In this document: positions 2,234 through 9,420 of the stretch, one piece after another
How positions within the stretch are numbered: position 1 is the stretch's first letter
How the letters are laid out: each line of letters opens with the position of its first letter
From: Candidatus Methylomirabilota bacterium
GTDB lineage: Bacteria > Methylomirabilota > Methylomirabilia > Methylomirabilales > Methylomirabilaceae
Assembly: GCA_016200385.1 (NCBI GenBank)
Contig: JACQEV010000324.1
Coordinates: forward strand, 1-10,010
Direction: 5' to 3'
Length of the DNA: 10,010 nt
Notes under the pieces: generated by a model
Seen by the model: only the letters and a program-made list of their open reading frames with translations
The model's database searches: none
Told to the model about the DNA's origin: nothing
Made by a program: the position numbers and the translations under genes

Positions 2234-4885
2234 GTGGACGAGAAGACCACGAGAAAACTCCTGATCGACAAGGCTCTTGAGCGGGCTGGCTGGTCCCCTA
2301 TTGTACACTGCGTCCCCGGGGCTTCCTATGACACGGCGGCTGTCGAGGAGTACGAAACCGCCGAGGGGCCGGCCGATTACGTCCTGTTTGATCGGGGAGA
2401 TGCCCTCGCCGCCGTCGAGGCCAAGAAGCTTGGCCTGGGTCCGCAGAACGTGCTCGGTCAGGCCCAGCGATACGCGAGGGGATTGCGGGGTGGTCGATTC
2501 AATTTCCATGGTTTCCGTCTCCCCTTTGTCTATTCCACGAATGGCGAGATCTTCTGGTTCCAGGACCTGCGGGAACAGTATAGCCGCTCCCGCCAGGTGG
2601 CGAGGTTTCACACCCCTTCCGCCCTCCGGGAGTTTCTGGGTCGCGATGTTGCCGCCGCGTCTGCCTGGCTCCGCGACCATCCCATTGAGCATCAGTTCTT
2701 ACGCCCTTACCAGCAGGACGCGATTGCGAGCATTGAAGAGGCTCTCATCTCAGGGAAGCGCCGGATGCTCGTCGCAATGGCTACGGGCACCGGGAAGACG
2801 TTCACCACAATCGGGTTGATCTATCGTCTTATGAAGTCCGGCTTCGCCCGGCGCATCCTTTTCCTCGTGGATCGCCGCGCCCTGGCGGCCCAAGCGGCTG
2901 GGGCCATGGCGGCCTTCGAGCCGGAACCCGGACTCAAGTTTGACCGGACTTACGAAGTCTTCAGTCAGCGTTTCCGCCGGGAGGACCTCGAAGAGCAGTT
3001 TAGATTCGATCCCAAGGTCCTCCCTACCGAGTATCTGACCGATCCCAAGCCTCGCGATGCGTTCGTCTACGTCTGCACCATCCAGGGGATGCGGATCAAT
3101 CTCTTCGGCCGAGAGGGGGCGTTTGGCACAGGTCGGGAGCCTCTTGACGAGGAGCCAGACGCCGAGGGCCTGGACATCCCCATCCATGCCTTCGACTGCA
3201 TTATTGCGGATGAATGCCACCGAGGATACACCTCAACCGAGGAAAGCAAATGGCGAGAGGTCTTGGACCATTTCGACGGAGTCAAGATCGGGCTGACCGC
3301 CACCCCAGCGGCCCACACGAGGGCGTATTTTCGGGACATTGTTTTCCGCTACGAGTACGAGCGGGCTGTCCGTGAGGGGTACCTGGTGGACTACGACGCT
3401 GTGCGGATCCAGTCAGATGTGACCATGAACGGCGTTTTCTTGAAGGAAGGAGAAGAGATCGGCTTGAAGGATACGCAGACCGGCCAGCTTACCTTCGACA
3501 TCTTGGAAGATGAAAGGCTCTTTCCTGCGGAAGACCTCGAGGAAAAGCTGACCGCTCCGGATCGGAATAGGAAGATCGTTAAAGAATTCGCCAAGTACGC
3601 CCGGGCCCAGGAGGCCGATCGGGGGATCTTTCCCAAGACGCTCGTCTTCGCCGTAAATGACCTGCCCCATATTTCCCATTCTGACCAGCTTGTCGAGATG
3701 CTCCGCGAGGAGTTCGGCAAAGGGGATGCGTTCGTCCAAAAGATCACCGGCAGTCCCACCGTGGACCGTCCCCTTCAGCGCATCCGGGAGTTTCGGAATC
3801 GGCCAAACCCCGGGATCGTCGTCACCGTTGACATGCTCTCGACAGGCGTGGACATCCCGCGCCTGGAGAATATCCTCTTCCTTCGCCCGGTGAAGTCCCG
3901 CATTCTCTTCGAGCAGATGCTGGGCCGTGGCACACGTCGCTGCGATGAGATCCACAAGACGCACTTCACCGTGTTCGACGTCCTCGGTGTTCTGGAGTAT
4001 TTCCGGCAGGCGAGCGCCTTTACCGCCGATCCCCCATCGAAACCGACGAGGCCGATCCGAGAGATCATCGAGGCCATTCATAATAACCAGGATCGGGATT
4101 ATAATGTCCGCGTTCTGATCAAACGGCTCCTGCGAATTGCCAAGAATGTCTCCGCCGAGGGGAGAACTCAATTCGCGGCCCTGATTTCCGGGCAGGATCT
4201 CGGCGACTTTGCTCGGTCCTTGCCCCAGCGCTTGGAGCAGAACTGGTCAGAGACGATGGTCCTGCTGCGAAGCGAGCCCCTTCTGGACTATCTGGAGAAC
4301 TATCCCAGGGCTCCACGGACGTTCATCGTTGCCGAGACTGTCGAAGACTTGGTGGTATCTGACTACATCTTCAGGACGGCGGATGGCCGGGAGCTGAAGC
4401 CCGAAGACTATTTGGTTGCCTTCGAACGGTTCGTGAAGGAGAACCCGGATCGTATCGAAGCCATCCGCATTCTTCTGAGCCGGCCCGCTGAGTTCCGGAC
4501 CGAGCATCTGAAGGAGCTTCGGGCCAAGCTGGCGGCCCGCCCTGAACGCTTCACGGAGCCGAATCTGCGCCGCGCCTATCAGAATGCTCTTGCCGACATC
4601 ATCTCAATTGTCCGCCATGCCGCCCTTCATGAGCCTCTTCTTGCCGCCCAAGAACGGGTCGGCAGGGCGATAGCCCGTATCCGGGCTGGCAGAACCTTTA
4701 CGCCGGAACAGGAGGGCTGGCTGGAATTGATCCAGGCTCACCTCATCGAAAACCTGGTCATCGAGAAGGCCGACTTTCAGGCCATTCCCTTCTCCCGTCG
4801 CGGCGCATGTGGTCGGGCAAACGCGGCGTTCGAGGGCCGGCTCGAAGAACTTCTGAACCAGATCAATGAAGCGATGGCAGCATGA
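2234..4885 (+). CDS. hsdR: type I restriction enzyme R subunit
   Basis: At 883 residues this is a full-length motor-nuclease subunit. In the R2M2S complex it translocates DNA from unmethylated sites using ATP and cuts at a distance. The N-terminal PD-(D/E)XK nuclease is visible as ADYVLFDRGDALAAVEAKK (Asp48, Glu62, Lys64). The SF2 helicase core has Walker A ATGTGKT (183-189), the DECH box (326-329), GLTATPA (353-359), motif V TVDMLSTGVDIP (531-542) and motif VI QMLGRGTRR (561-569). The C-terminal roughly 230 residues resemble the EcoEI-type R C-terminal domain that docks on the methyltransferase. GTG 2234 is chosen because a GAGAGAG tract sits just upstream and the nuclease domain begins at the normal distance. 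The gene overlaps hsdM by ATGA, so translation is coupled. No inactivating change was seen. Confidence 0.96.
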   Translation: MDEKTTRKLLIDKALERAGWSPIVHCVPGASYDTAAVEEYETAEGPADYVLFDRGDALAAVEAKKLGLGPQNVLGQAQRYARGLRGGRFNFHGFRLPFVYSTNGEIFWFQDLREQYSRSRQVARFHTPSALREFLGRDVAAASAWLRDHPIEHQFLRPYQQDAIASIEEALISGKRRMLVAMATGTGKTFTTIGLIYRLMKSGFARRILFLVDRRALAAQAAGAMAAFEPEPGLKFDRTYEVFSQRFRREDLEEQFRFDPKVLPTEYLTDPKPRDAFVYVCTIQGMRINLFGREGAFGTGREPLDEEPDAEGLDIPIHAFDCIIADECHRGYTSTEESKWREVLDHFDGVKIGLTATPAAHTRAYFRDIVFRYEYERAVREGYLVDYDAVRIQSDVTMNGVFLKEGEEIGLKDTQTGQLTFDILEDERLFPAEDLEEKLTAPDRNRKIVKEFAKYARAQEADRGIFPKTLVFAVNDLPHISHSDQLVEMLREEFGKGDAFVQKITGSPTVDRPLQRIREFRNRPNPGIVVTVDMLSTGVDIPRLENILFLRPVKSRILFEQMLGRGTRRCDEIHKTHFTVFDVLGVLEYFRQASAFTADPPSKPTRPIREIIEAIHNNQDRDYNVRVLIKRLLRIAKNVSAEGRTQFAALISGQDLGDFARSLPQRLEQNWSETMVLLRSEPLLDYLENYPRAPRTFIVAETVEDLVVSDYIFRTADGRELKPEDYLVAFERFVKENPDRIEAIRILLSRPAEFRTEHLKELRAKLAARPERFTEPNLRRAYQNALADIISIVRHAALHEPLLAAQERVGRAIARIRAGRTFTPEQEGWLELIQAHLIENLVIEKADFQAIPFSRRGACGRANAAFEGRLEELLNQINEAMAA

Positions 4886-6273
4886 GCACTGATGTCGGTG
4901 CTAAACTTTGGGGTTTTTGCAATACGTTGCGCCACGACGGCATTAACTATGGGGACTACGTCGAGCAGCTCACCTATCTGCTATTCCTGAAGCTTGCCGA
5001 TGAGAAAGGCCTCCCTGTGCCGGAGAGATGTGGCTGGCCGACCTTGCGCGAGCGCGCCGGTACCGATCTGCTGGATCATTATGTGGAGGTTCTCCGTATC
5101 CTGGGCAAGGAGGCGGTAATCCTGGGAGACATCTTCGCGGGCGCCCTCTCTAAGTTCCGCGAGCCCGTCAATCTGAAGAAGCTGATCACCCTCATTGACG
5201 AGACCGAATGGGCCGCCCTGGACATAGATCTCAAGGGCCAAGCCTACGAGGGACTGCTTCAGAAGTACGCCGCCGAGCAGAAGGGCGCGGGCCAGTACTT
5301 TACTCCCCGCGAAGCGATCCGGGCCGTTGTCAGGTGCGTGCGGCCCGACGTTCGGGAGCACGGTGAGTTCACCATCCACGATCCCGCGTGCGGGACGGCG
5401 GGCTTTCTCATCGGAGCCTACGAATGGCTCATGGGTCAGACTCGCGAGGGAGCGGACCTGCGCCGCGAGGACCGGGAGAGGCTCCAGAAGCGGACCTTCT
5501 CTGGCGGGGAGATCGTGCTGGAGACCCGACGCCTCGGGTTGATGAACCTCTACCTGCACGAGATCGATGCGAAGATCTACTATGGCGACTCCCTCGCCGA
5601 AGGACCGCACGTGGACAGGCGCTATGACTGCGTCCTCACCAAGCCCCCATTTGGGACCAAGGGGAGCGGGGACGTTCCGGTCCGGGACGACTTCACCGTC
5701 CAGACCTCTAACAAGCAGCTTAATTTCCTCCAGCACGTTGTGCACATCCTGAAGCCTGGGGGGCGGGCCGCGATCGTCCTTCCGGACAACGTCCTCTTCG
5801 AGGACCACGCGGGTCGCGACGTTCGCCGCCTCCTGATAACCGACTGTGAGCTTCACACCATCCTGCGACTGCCCATCGGCACCTTCACCCCCTACTCGCC
5901 CGGGGTGAAGGCCAACATCCTCTTCTTCCGCAAGGGCCTGCCAACTGAGGAGGTCTGGATCTACGACCTGCGGACCAACGTCGAGAAGGTGACCAAACGC
6001 CACCCCCTGACCGCCGACTATTTCAAAGAGTTCGAGGAGTGCTACCAAGGCAAGCCTCGAAAGGAGACCGAGCGCTTCAGGCGTTCTACTCGTAATGAGA
6101 TCGCCGGGCGGGACGACAACCTGGACATCTTCTGGCTCAAGGACGAGTCCCTTGGGGATGCCGGTGATCTCCCCGAGCCCGAGGATCTCGTCAGTGAGGT
6201 CGTCACCCAGTTGGAAACCGCACTCGACGCCCTCCGCGATTTGGCGCTCCGGCTTCAGGAAAACGGTAAGTGA
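4882..6273 (+). CDS. hsdM: type I restriction-modification DNA methyltransferase M subunit (catalytic motif altered)
   Basis: This 463-residue HsdM would, with HsdS, N6-methylate adenine in the recognition site and form the core for HsdR. The HsdM N-terminal helical domain covers roughly residues 5-115, then GAGQYFTPREAIRAVV (136-150). The S-adenosylmethionine motif I is DPACGTAGFL (167-176). Motif IV reads LTKPPFGTKGSG from residue 252: Lys254 (AAG, 5641-5643) replaces the Asn of the canonical N-P-P-F/Y/W that binds the target adenine. A single base change from AAC or AAT would explain it. The rest of the domain (SNKQLNFLQHVVHILKPGGRAA; VKANILFF) is well conserved, so the fold looks intact but the catalysis is doubtful. 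It overlaps hsdR by 4 bp; the next gene starts 72 bp later. Confidence 0.95.
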   Translation: MSTDVGAKLWGFCNTLRHDGINYGDYVEQLTYLLFLKLADEKGLPVPERCGWPTLRERAGTDLLDHYVEVLRILGKEAVILGDIFAGALSKFREPVNLKKLITLIDETEWAALDIDLKGQAYEGLLQKYAAEQKGAGQYFTPREAIRAVVRCVRPDVREHGEFTIHDPACGTAGFLIGAYEWLMGQTREGADLRREDRERLQKRTFSGGEIVLETRRLGLMNLYLHEIDAKIYYGDSLAEGPHVDRRYDCVLTKPPFGTKGSGDVPVRDDFTVQTSNKQLNFLQHVVHILKPGGRAAIVLPDNVLFEDHAGRDVRRLLITDCELHTILRLPIGTFTPYSPGVKANILFFRKGLPTEEVWIYDLRTNVEKVTKRHPLTADYFKEFEECYQGKPRKETERFRRSTRNEIAGRDDNLDIFWLKDESLGDAGDLPEPEDLVSEVVTQLETALDALRDLALRLQENGK

Positions 6274-6287
6274 ACGGAGGACTGCGG

Positions 6288-6359
6288 TTGAGCGCTCCCG
6301 AACTGAATGGCGCACTTGCAACGCTGACAAAGGAGATAATAGCTCATGGCGAAAGCTGA
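6288..6359 (+). other. possible 23-codon leader ORF before the antitoxin gene
   Basis: GGAGG (6276-6280) sits 7 nt before TTG 6288, which opens a 23-codon frame ending in TGA 6357-6359, overlapping the antitoxin start by 14 nt. The peptide (SAPELNGALATLTKEI...) is protein-like and unrecognised. It could couple translation from hsdM to the antitoxin, be a remnant of the original gene junction, or be chance. Confidence 0.2.
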
Positions 6360-6552
6360 GGCTCTGGCAGAGGTTTTCCTTAGGGCTTTGCGATCCCTTC
6401 CGAAGGCTGGCAGAGAACGCGTGCTCCAGGGGTTGATAAAAGACAGGACCATGCGCAGAGACTTGATGGACCTGGCAGTTATCGAGGAACGAAAAGGTGA
6501 ACCATCCCGTCCCTTCCGCGACTATCTGAAAGAACGGAGAGGGCGGGGATGA
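6346..6552 (+). CDS. putative type II antitoxin of a RelE/ParE-type pair
   Basis: This small protein of 68 residues is highly charged and mostly helical in appearance, with no membrane segment. It directly precedes a RelE/ParE-like toxin gene: its TGA at 6550-6552 is one base before the toxin start, which is the standard antitoxin-first arrangement. The C-terminal part, rich in Arg/Glu and ending near GEPSRPFRDYLKERRGRG (from about residue 51), looks like the flexible toxin-wrapping tail of such antitoxins. That assignment rests on position and general character, since no DNA-binding fold (ribbon-helix-helix, Phd/YefM or HTH) could be named with confidence. AAGGAG at 6330-6335 lies 10 nt before ATG 6346 and supports the start. 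Antitoxins of this kind normally bind and neutralise the toxin and repress their own operon. Confidence 0.65.
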   Translation: MAKAEALAEVFLRALRSLPKAGRERVLQGLIKDRTMRRDLMDLAVIEERKGEPSRPFRDYLKERRGRG

Positions 6553-6553
6553 C

Positions 6554-6808
6554 GTGAAGTACACAATTGAAATCAAGAGGTCAGCCGAACGCGAAATGAC
6601 GCGATTGCCAGATCTTATTCACAGTCGGGTTAGCGAAAAGATACTAGCCCTGGAGGTCGAGCCACGGCCTTCAGGAAGTCGAAAGTTGGAGGGTGGAGAG
6701 GGCTATCGCCTCCGCGTGGGAGACTACCGAGTGCTTTATACCATCGATGACCAGAAACAGCGCGTACTCATTTACAGTATCGCTCATCGGCGTGAGGCGT
6801 ATCGGTGA
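6554..6808 (+). CDS. RelE/ParE family toxin
   Basis: At 84 residues this is the typical RelE/ParE length. YTIEIKRSAEREMTRLP (residues 3-19) is the usual N-terminal strand and helix. RKLEGGEGYRLRVGDYRVLY (43-62) is the core signature, with basic residues Lys44, Arg52, Arg54 and Arg59. The tail IYSIAHRREAYR (73-84) carries the family's V-x-H-R-x-x-Y ending. RelE members cleave mRNA on the ribosome, while ParE members poison gyrase; the sequence alone does not settle which. The start is GTG 6554, one base after the antitoxin stop, implying translational coupling so that toxin is made only with antitoxin. It lies between hsdM and hsdS, so it is probably co-transcribed with the restriction genes or from a promoter not recognised here. 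All core residues seem present, so the toxin is likely functional. Confidence 0.88.
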   Translation: MKYTIEIKRSAEREMTRLPDLIHSRVSEKILALEVEPRPSGSRKLEGGEGYRLRVGDYRVLYTIDDQKQRVLIYSIAHRREAYR

Positions 6809-7017: not shown

Positions 7018-8140
7018 GTGACAGACAGCAGGGAACTGGATAGCAAAGCAAGTCAGGATGAGCGGTACGAGCTGCCTGAGGGGTGGGCGTGGGCATCTCT
7101 CGACGATGCCTGTGTTGTCAATCCGAGGCATGAGAGGAATGCCCTGCCTGACGATGCTCTGGTCTCGTTCATTCCTATGGCGGCTGTGGATCAACAGAGT
7201 GGTTGCATTTCTGGAAGTGTCGCTCGACGTTACGGCGAGGTCCGGAAAGGGTTTACACACTTTGCGGAGGGTGATGTACTTTTCGCTCGGATCACACCCT
7301 GCATGGAGAACGGCAAGATCGCCGTCGCACGAAACCTGGTAAATGGCCTTGGCTGTGGGACGACCGAGTTCCACGTCCTGCGCTCCCTGGGCGGAATACT
7401 TCCAGAGTACATCCATCGCTATCTCCGCCAGGAGTCTTTCCGTCGGAGCGCTGCGGCGAATATGTCGGGAACGGCTGGCCAATTGCGGGTTCCGACGGAC
7501 TATATGAGATCGGTCCAGCTACCGCTAGCGCCGCTGGCCGAGCAGCGGAGGATCATGGCGAAGATCGAGGCGCTATTCGAGCAGAGCCGCACGGCCCGCC
7601 AAACCCTGGACCGCATCCCACCTTTGCTGAAGAAGTTCCGGCAGTCGGTCCTCGCTGCCGCCTTCCGTGGCGACCTCACTCGCGACTGGCGTGAGCAGCA
7701 TCCTGATGTCGATCCCGCCCCGGTCTTGTTAGAGCACATTTGCGCGGAACGTCGCCGCAAATGGGAAGAGGATCTTCGTACCAAAGGCAAAGATCTTCGG
7801 ATGATGAAATGGGACAGGCCTAAACCCGTGGACACTTCACACCTCCCGAACCTGCCTGAGGGTTGGTTATGGATAGGACTCGGGGAGCTCATCGGTCGTT
7901 CACAGAACGGTCTTTCGACAAGATTCAGCCAGGTAGGAACACCGACGCCGGTCTTACGGCTCGCTGATATTAAGGATGGCCGGATCACCACGGATGGCAT
8001 TCGCCTTATTCGGTTGAGCGACGGAGAGATCCAGAAATATGGCCTCGCCAGGGGTGATCTCCTTGTGATTAGAGTGAACGGGAGCAAGGAATTAGTAGGA
8101 AGGCCGATACTGTTTAGTCTTGATGGGACCTTCACATATT

Positions 8141-8148
8141 GCGACCAT
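8141..8148 (+). repeat. left copy of 8-bp target site duplication
   Basis: GCGACCAT encodes part of C-D-H at the end of the intact 5' part of hsdS. It is repeated exactly at 8250-8257. Confidence 0.8.
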
Positions 8149-8153
8149 AGGCC

Positions 8154-8170
8154 TATTTACTTGACTCAAC
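8154..8170 (+). repeat. left arm of perfect 17-bp inverted repeat
   Basis: TATTTACTTGACTCAAC is the exact reverse complement of 8226-8242. The 55 bases between the arms continue as an imperfect stem. Confidence 0.92.
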
Positions 8171-8225
8171 CAACCCCAATATCATGTGGCAAGTCGAGTC
8201 GCCGCACCACAACATCTGGTGACTA

Positions 8226-8242
8226 GTTGAGTCAAGTAAATA
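8226..8242 (-). repeat. right arm of perfect 17-bp inverted repeat
   Basis: GTTGAGTCAAGTAAATA on the + strand pairs base for base with 8154-8170. Its first base also completes the TAG that ends the truncated hsdS product. Confidence 0.92.
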
Positions 8243-8249
8243 CCCACAT

Positions 8250-8257
8250 GCGACCAT
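8250..8257 (+). repeat. right copy of 8-bp target site duplication
   Basis: GCGACCAT, identical to 8141-8148. The hsdS reading frame resumes directly after it at TTC 8258. Confidence 0.8.
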
Positions 8258-8760
8258 TTCATCCGGTACTCAATTCTTTCTCAGGAGGTGCTTCCAGACC
8301 TGATCGCTCTTTATCTGGATACCAAGAGAGCCAGGGACTACGTTCAGTTCAGTGTGGTTTCGAGCGCAGGCCAAAACACCATTAGCCAGTCAAGCCTCGC
8401 GACTCTCCAAGTTCCGCTTGTGCCAGCACCTGAGCAACAGCATATTTTGGACAGGGTGAAGGAGTTTTTCGTCTTAGCAGATGCCATCGAAGCGAAGGTG
8501 GAGTTAACGCGGCGGCAGGCGGAGAAGCTAGAGCAGTCTATCCTAGCTAGAGCTTTCCGCGGCGAATTAGTTCCTCAAGACCCCAAAGACGAACCCGCAT
8601 CCATCCTCCTTGACCAGATCCGCGCCAGAGGTGTAAGAAGTGACATCCCCCAAAAGCCTCCGGCTAGATACTTGAGGGAGAAGAAACGTCAAGGCAAGAG
8701 GGGACTCGCGAACATTTGATGGCGAAAGCCTGAACCTACCCTTGTGTACCGAGCGCTGCA

Positions 8761-9420
8761 GTGTCACAAGATCCATTAAGCGAGACTGATCGTTTGCTCA
8801 ACGAAAAAGATCTTGTAAAGAAAATTGAAAAGGTAATTCGTGAGAAAAAGGAAAAGGGGAACAGGCCCTCCTTTCTCAGGTACACGCACGCCCATCTGAA
8901 TTTAGCACATAAGGGTTTTGAGGAAATATGGGGAAATTGGTATACAGGGCAGACACCGCCAAAACTTGAGGTCGACCTCCTTTGTATCTTCGAAGATGTT
9001 CAAAAACGCATTGACGACGCACTGATTGTCGCCGTGGAGATGAAGTATTTCCGTGGGAGTTCGAGAAGTAGCTTTTACCAAGGATTGGACCAGGTTCTGG
9101 CTCTCTCTCTATTTGGTTTTGATGGCTTATCACTATGGCATTTATTTTCTGGCGATGCCGAAGAAAGTGTAATCAAAGGGCATTCGAATGCAGTTGAAGA
9201 AATAACACAAGGTTATAAGTTGCCCTTATTCTATTTGGCGGCCAAAGTTGGGAATGATCTTGAATTCTCCTCATACTCGCCGGCAGTGACCACTGGTGGT
9301 GTTGACTATTATCTTAAATGGATGTGGGATTACAGTCGTGACAATAGAAATCCCCTTCTGCAATCTGACGAAGTTAAGAAGAGAAGAAAAACAATAAAAG
9401 CGATGTTGCAGATTCCTTGA
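8761..9420 (+). CDS. unrecognised protein with a probable PD-(D/E)XK nuclease fold
   Basis: The gene encodes 219 residues and is not a family that can be named. The middle looks like a PD-(D/E)XK core: KLEVDLLCIF (Asp72) then ALIVAVEMKYF (Glu93, Lys95) gives the D-x(n)-E-x-K pattern on two strands, preceded by a helix with FEEIW (Glu54, Glu55) and followed by YQGLDQVLALSLFGFDGLSL (106-125), a helix of the kind that packs beside the active site. The N terminus (about 1-37) is charged and lysine-rich. There is no membrane segment or signal peptide. GTG 8761 is the first usable start after an in-frame stop at 8731, but its Shine-Dalgarno sequence is poor. The gene is visibly AT-richer than hsdR/M, suggesting separate acquisition. 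It sits 41 bp after hsdS and ahead of a helicase gene. Role inferred: DNA binding or cleavage, perhaps in defence. Confidence 0.6.
   Translation: MSQDPLSETDRLLNEKDLVKKIEKVIREKKEKGNRPSFLRYTHAHLNLAHKGFEEIWGNWYTGQTPPKLEVDLLCIFEDVQKRIDDALIVAVEMKYFRGSSRSSFYQGLDQVLALSLFGFDGLSLWHLFSGDAEESVIKGHSNAVEEITQGYKLPLFYLAAKVGNDLEFSSYSPAVTTGGVDYYLKWMWDYSRDNRNPLLQSDEVKKRRKTIKAMLQIP

Follow-up and report, generated by a model that had tools for sequence, protein, structure and literature searches.

Our analysis reveals that hsdS, the specificity gene of a type I restriction-modification system, has almost certainly been split by the insertion of a MITE of IS1595 type, a 101-bp element without a transposase which is bounded by an exact 8-bp direct repeat. 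The window, by which we mean the whole stretch of 10,010 nucleotides that was analysed, is contig C100 of a Methylomirabilota genome (G000, the host genome), a MAG of 2.21 Mb in 411 contigs which is 81% complete; the comparison drew on 95 genomes of the phylum, of which 15 belong to the genus of the window (G004, G005, G006 and G007 among them), and G018 denotes a relative from the host's order. In the window hsdR, hsdM and the broken hsdS (7018-8719) follow one another, and the features of the locus are the following.

2234..4885, + strand: hsdR, restriction subunit of the type I system
4882..6273, + strand: hsdM, methylation subunit of that type I system; among solved structures 2okc and EcoKI M match best
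7018..8226, + strand: 5' part of hsdS in its present reading (402 aa): first recognition domain and central conserved region, followed by a portion of the second recognition domain and by residues which the element encodes
8141..8148, + strand: left target-site duplication GCGACCAT, exact direct repeat
8149..8249, + strand: MITE, 101 bp, with IS1595-type ends and without transposase (98% copy in G006; 77 bp identical in the host genome)
8154..8170, + strand: left terminal inverted repeat TATTTACTTGACTCAAC, found unchanged at both IS ends in G018:C145
8226..8242, - strand: right terminal inverted repeat, the same sequence on the other strand
8249..8719, + strand: hsdS 3' part (CDHFIRYS...), with the rest of the second recognition domain and the distal conserved region
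8250..8257, + strand: right target-site duplication GCGACCAT, exact direct repeat

The two 8-bp direct repeats and the perfect 17-bp inverted repeat between them, both described by the first-pass annotation, were recovered at the same places, and the identity of the flanking repeats in fact reaches 9 nt (TGCGACCAT, 8140-8148 and 8249-8257) when T8140 and T8249 are counted. The arms can be extended inward to 36 bp (8154-8189 and 8207-8242), over which they are 78% complementary. An inverted repeat of 17 bp within 150 bp was seen in none of 100 dinucleotide shuffles of the whole window, and as single-stranded DNA the element folds with z = -4.26, none of 200 shuffles being equally stable. It holds no transposase of its own, since 101 bp are too short for one and the frame of hsdS enters the element and stops there.

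This stop, at 8226, ends the open frame of hsdS after 402 aa, and in the 3' part the listed ORF that has a start codon spans 8288-8719. The earlier claim that the frame is continuous once the insertion is taken out holds, as the 5' part through 8148 ends with FTYCDH, the 3' part from 8249 starts with CDHFIRYS, and both match HsdS models. With PADLOC the two parts match successive segments of Specificity_I (5' part 2.5e-109, profile 7-336; 3' part 1.1e-33, profile 348-487), and a Pfam search matched neither of them. Taken across the two parts and beside hsdR and hsdM, the layout of a type I HsdS is present with its two recognition domains and two conserved regions, the insertion point lying in the second target-recognition domain; in the alignment with EcoKI HsdS the 5' part runs up to residue 302 and the 3' part from residue 321. 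For the homologues, the 5' part was searched alone and 5724 proteins were obtained at E <= 0.001 among 7997 scored candidates, and 119 of them, that is the best 120 minus the window itself (P0001), were compared with both parts. With the 5' part aligned to residue 370 or beyond, the 3' part from residue 5 or before, and the alignment ends within 60 residues, 18 of these 119 (from the best 120 of 5724) reach the junction with the alignments of both parts; at this point 11 of them have no extra residue and 7 have three, and all 18 lack an insertion of the element's size (36 residues); the remaining 101 miss this junction criterion and are thus uninformative on the site, the recognition domain being the variable part of HsdS. 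Accordingly, among the best 120 of 5724, homologous proteins run through the site uninterrupted, as the proposed alignment check had envisaged, and the gap that would have spoken against an insertion recurs in 0 of the 18 which span it. As the HsdS proteins of the genus genomes are all distant (43% over 177 residues at best), there is no empty site at the DNA level for the hsdS of the window.

The 18 uninterrupted homologues also argue against an assembly artefact, in which two contigs would have been misjoined through a repeat. The assembler did meet the repeat, since another contig of this MAG, C13, has its start within the element; however, a chance join would be expected to lack the 8-bp duplication that both sides share, and would not be expected to bring together two halves of hsdS which are adjacent within 0-3 residues in these 18 homologues (from the best 120 of 5724), so that a misjoin is extremely improbable.

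Moreover, several copies of the element are present at unrelated sites. In the host genome the searches gave one complete copy, and contig G000:C13 also has 77 bp identical to the window element and then a different flank. A pentapeptide-repeat ORF of 377 aa has its 3' end at this second host copy (L004, 1-78) and stops within the element; both copies of the host genome abut or interrupt coding frames, and the left flank of the C13 copy is missing from the assembly. In the phylum, blastn gave matches in 6 of the 95 genomes, among them G057, in which the match is the end of an insertion sequence and not a MITE. The covariance model A3, built from five copies, matched in 10 of the 95, five of the matched copies being sources of the model; the window copy scores 114 bits against it, as one of these five source sequences. 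All ten genomes belong to the genus of the window or to two families of the same order. An extra copy in G002, missed by the model, was found with a variant-arm pattern across the 15 genus genomes. MITE relatives are thus present in at least 11 of the 95 phylum genomes, 8 of them among the 15 of the genus, and this is a lower bound because the covariance search used stricter filters and scored no more than 42 candidates per genome. A scan of genome contigs for exact arm pairs, which misses diverged arms and whose coverage possibly excludes the window's own genome, returned one record, JACQQF010000073.1, at the place of the G006 copy.

Thirteen copies have both flanks; G000:C13 and G019:C86, which stand at contig ends, and G018:C242, whose right end is lost, were left out. 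Nine of the thirteen are 101 bp long, and the others measure 100 bp (G004 and G002), 111 bp (G009:C12) and 153 bp (G010:C68), the length being that of the model match wherever the duplication is absent. The model scores are weak for G010:C68 (27.8 bits) and G002 (24.9 bits). The former (L178, 1367-1519) is a relative whose middle is longer and whose duplication is 7/8, and the family is therefore not strictly of 101 bp.

For the duplications, the element length was fixed, the frame was slid by at most 4 bases, and random places in the same loci served as control. An exact 8/8 duplication flanks 7 of the 13 copies (the window, G006:C48, G019:C77, G019:C31, G032:C93, G009:C1 and G009:C12), a 7/8 duplication flanks one (G010:C68), and at most 5/8 is found in five (G010:C112, G014:C136, G007:C34, G004:C65 and G002:C127); among 58,662 control placements 8/8 occurred in 4 and 7/8 in 187, and the control of a first run on 11 copies had given 1 in 19,769. 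For the G006 copy the duplication is 7/8 in the register of the window and 8/8 one base to the left, and the G032 copy is a weaker case because its site is inside a local repeat. A looser test with both ends free gave 7/8 for G004 and 6/8 for G010:C112, which were kept out of the counts. In G014 (L147) and G007 (L148), two species of the genus, one MITE insertion (1501-1601) has identical flanks and therefore looks like one old, probably inherited insertion. An empty site is at hand for the G006 copy: its contig has a paralogous stretch, with a likeness of 84% on one side of the site and 73% on the other, which is without the element and reads CCAGCTTGGTAGCTAA. Contig G000:C10 had been considered as an empty site for the same copy and was dropped, the orthologous stretch ceasing to match before the insertion site.

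Copies with different 8-bp duplications, for which the first-pass annotation had advised a search, are thus found, exact in 7 of 13 with the window included, and together with the uninterrupted HsdS homologues they support its reading as a transposition. The contrary prospect which it had named, a conserved part of hsdS loci, is not what is seen, since the other copies whose surroundings were read are outside hsdS loci. As to its age, the window and the G006 copy are 98% alike over 101 bp, and one homologous stretch compared between both genomes is 83% alike over 488 bp; judged from these sequences, this likeness and the 77-bp identity within the host fit a recent movement, and the likeness to G006 may also reflect an exchange between lineages.

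The same copies bear on two other explanations. Bypass elements are a known precedent for skipped segments, and if ribosomes or RNA processing skipped 109 nt here, HsdS would still be made; identical codons indeed flank a hairpin-forming insert, yet the same element stands at unrelated sites in other genomes with duplications of its own, and the Rfam search of the window matched no family, which leaves such a bypass hardly credible at all. Pair counts on alignment A4 were not used as evidence for an RNA, because the covariation in A4 is inflated by the presence of the same palindromes on both strands, and because a transposon should have matching ends in any case. Copies elsewhere also keep intact duplications, as a simple insertion predicts, which speaks against a reversible switch, that is a precise loss between the 8-9-bp direct repeats which would restore hsdS in part of the population and make the gene phase-variable. 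Precise excision between very short repeats, as these are, is rare, and nothing links the element to regulation; in its favour the direct repeats are identical with a palindrome between them, the classical geometry for precise excision, and on balance we regard the switch as very unlikely.

The insertion reading is further sharpened by the ends of the element. The earlier statement that the parent family cannot be named is corrected here, because an insertion sequence in G018:C145 has the same ends and an IS1595 transposase, just the full element that a further proposed check was to look for. Both of its ends read TATTTACTTGACTCAACCA and equal the arms of the MITE, the left one over 19 nt and the right one over 17, and its transposase of 308 aa has a zinc ribbon and a catalytic domain (PF12762 8.9e-24, PF12760 4.1e-15, NF033547 7.5e-56). 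The homology extends past the terminal repeat, positions 1-34 of the MITE being 88% alike to the left end of the G018 element; positions 58-97 are 88% alike to the end of an IS1595 remnant in G057, and the core TACTTGAC is found again next to several IS1595 transposase genes of the phylum which are less closely related. A derivation of both arms from one end of the insertion sequence, the left, was considered and dropped, since the right arm fits a left end (G057, 20/28, counted at positions inside the terminal repeat and the best fit) and also a right end (the second G018 element, 18/28). Read by eye, the G018 element has no clear duplication and stands next to a second insertion sequence. 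The locus (L037, 445-2480) holds two different IS1595 elements head to tail, whose transposases are 66% identical and whose ends differ. With a general terminal-repeat finder the transposase frame was recovered in just 2 of 8 loci, without any informative result.

No match to an IS1595 transposase was obtained in the host MAG, 81% complete, either with PF12762 or with the G018 transposase as query, and the mover has therefore been lost, is encoded in sequence absent from the assembly, or had another source; for a MITE an autonomous partner within its own genome is the usual case but no requirement. Within the genus, G005 and G006 have an IS1595 transposase just 38-42% identical to that of G018, and in the stretches scanned near these elements no MITE-like end matched closely (at best 5 mismatches in 17); G004 and G007 have decayed or weak matches to the G018 transposase at most. 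In G004:C65, a contig which also has a MITE copy, a decayed fragment of 53 residues with two stops is 70% identical to the G018 transposase (L116) and is possibly a dead former partner.

According to PMC8101967, IS1595 elements usually make 8-bp duplications and have an N-terminal zinc finger except in one group. The window element resembles this family in its terminal repeats, identical over 17-19 nt with those of an insertion sequence of the same order, and in its 8-bp target duplication (PMC8101967); it differs in being 101 bp long and without transposase, in having halves alike over 36 bp, and in that no matching autonomous copy was found in the host. With the prokaryotic MITEs derived from insertion sequences, as PMC3852290 presents them, it shares the short length, the lack of a transposase ORF, the inverted repeats in common with an insertion sequence, the direct repeats and the several copies. 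However, those often exceed 10 copies per genome according to PMC3852290, whereas 1-3 per genome were found here as a lower bound; and here the length stays at 101 bp in 9 of 13 although the blast identity drops to ~70% and some copies are beyond blast.

As for the mechanism, the non-autonomous 101-bp element has almost certainly moved into the second target-recognition domain of hsdS and duplicated the 8 bp GCGACCAT; we infer that an IS1595-family transposase moved it in trans. The element shifts the frame and introduces the stop at 8226, and one frame therefore no longer encodes a specificity subunit of full length.

Type I restriction and modification both require HsdS, and the loss of both activities is therefore the simplest result; both are probably off in this system. 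The first-pass annotation had called hsdS knocked out, and the broken frame stands as described; the loss of function is just probable, because truncated HsdS proteins with an intact first half are active in known systems, as PMC3874165 reports. No second specificity gene was found in the host genome, by searches which are weak and on an assembly 81% complete: Methylase_S recovered the window's own 3' part alone, below the cut-off, and missed the 5' part, and the 5' part as protein query recovered the window's own gene alone.

It is conceivable, though unlikely, that the 402-aa product would pair with itself together with HsdM, and that a palindromic bipartite site would then become the target of methylation and restriction. 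The best solved match, EcoKI, and the order of the domains, S1-D1-S2-D2, are type IA-like, and in the review PMC3874165 homodimers of type IA are unreported and the two helical regions of that type are little similar; moreover, about 100 residues of a broken domain together with the residues encoded by the element may destabilise the product, and restriction would be uncertain as HsdR matches its closest NCBIfam model from position 231 on and below the cut-off. On the other side, the break falls within the second recognition domain and leaves the product its first one together with the central dimerisation region; the frames of hsdM and hsdR are open, and the window HsdS has two conserved regions which are 30% identical over 117 aa (E 7e-14). 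There are also precedents: in EcoDXXI, where Tn5 had inserted into the second recognition domain, the remaining half-subunit pairs with itself and reads a palindrome, the natural NgoAV had a similar outcome (both PMC3874165), and engineered half-HsdS enzymes were active according to PMC6158711. With EcoDXXI, which was broken by a transposable element, and with NgoAV the window hsdS shares the break in the second recognition domain and the intact first half (PMC3874165); in contrast it is type IA-like and was hit by a MITE instead of Tn5, and such half-subunit activity is unreported outside type IC in the review, where the dimerisation regions of type IA are little similar. If this outcome were true, a small mobile element would have rewritten a restriction specificity outside type IC in a single step. 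The loss of both activities remains the reading we prefer.

A MITE derived from an insertion sequence, with an 8-bp duplication and a disrupted gene, is of a kind well known, and judging from the literature rather than from ISfinder the window element is apparently an unlisted family of this known kind. By title or the start of the abstract, and with subscription papers thinly covered, the literature gave nothing on IS1595 MITEs in Methylomirabilota or on MITEs in hsdS. What our analysis adds is a parent, IS1595, for a family of ~100-bp elements in one order of the little-studied Methylomirabilota, and a clean natural case of a MITE which breaks a type I specificity gene in the very domain where a laboratory insertion changed the target and did not kill the enzyme.

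Outside the cellular genomes, a search of phage and plasmid records at E 0.01 found no match, and an internal 22-mer was absent from viral contigs. A 16-bp arm occurs in 22 viral stretches, several with common flanks and hence fewer independent sequences; for 18 of the 22 the 3 kb downstream contain no inverted partner, the other four (L019, L023, L028 and L030) have a weak inverted partner alone, with 4 mismatches at 251-2227 bp, and all were treated as unrelated to the MITE.

Several further observations were made in the window. The N-terminus of HsdR is possibly short or divergent, as the match to the closest NCBIfam model, PRK11448, starts at position 231 of 1123 with 616 bits against a cut-off of 729, and just the last part of Pfam HSDR_N is matched. 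Upstream of hsdR, 1308-2033 encodes a PD-(D/E)XK nuclease with weak likeness to Cas4 (PF12705 3.2e-13). Between hsdM and hsdS, a ParE/RelE-type toxin-like ORF (6554-6808, PF05016 2.1e-11) is directly preceded by an ORF of 68 aa (6346-6552), which could be an antitoxin. Located 3' of hsdS is an ORF of 219 aa (8761-9420) with zero matches in Pfam, NCBIfam and PADLOC, and after it the start of a UvrD/PcrA-like helicase runs from 9523 to the end of the window.
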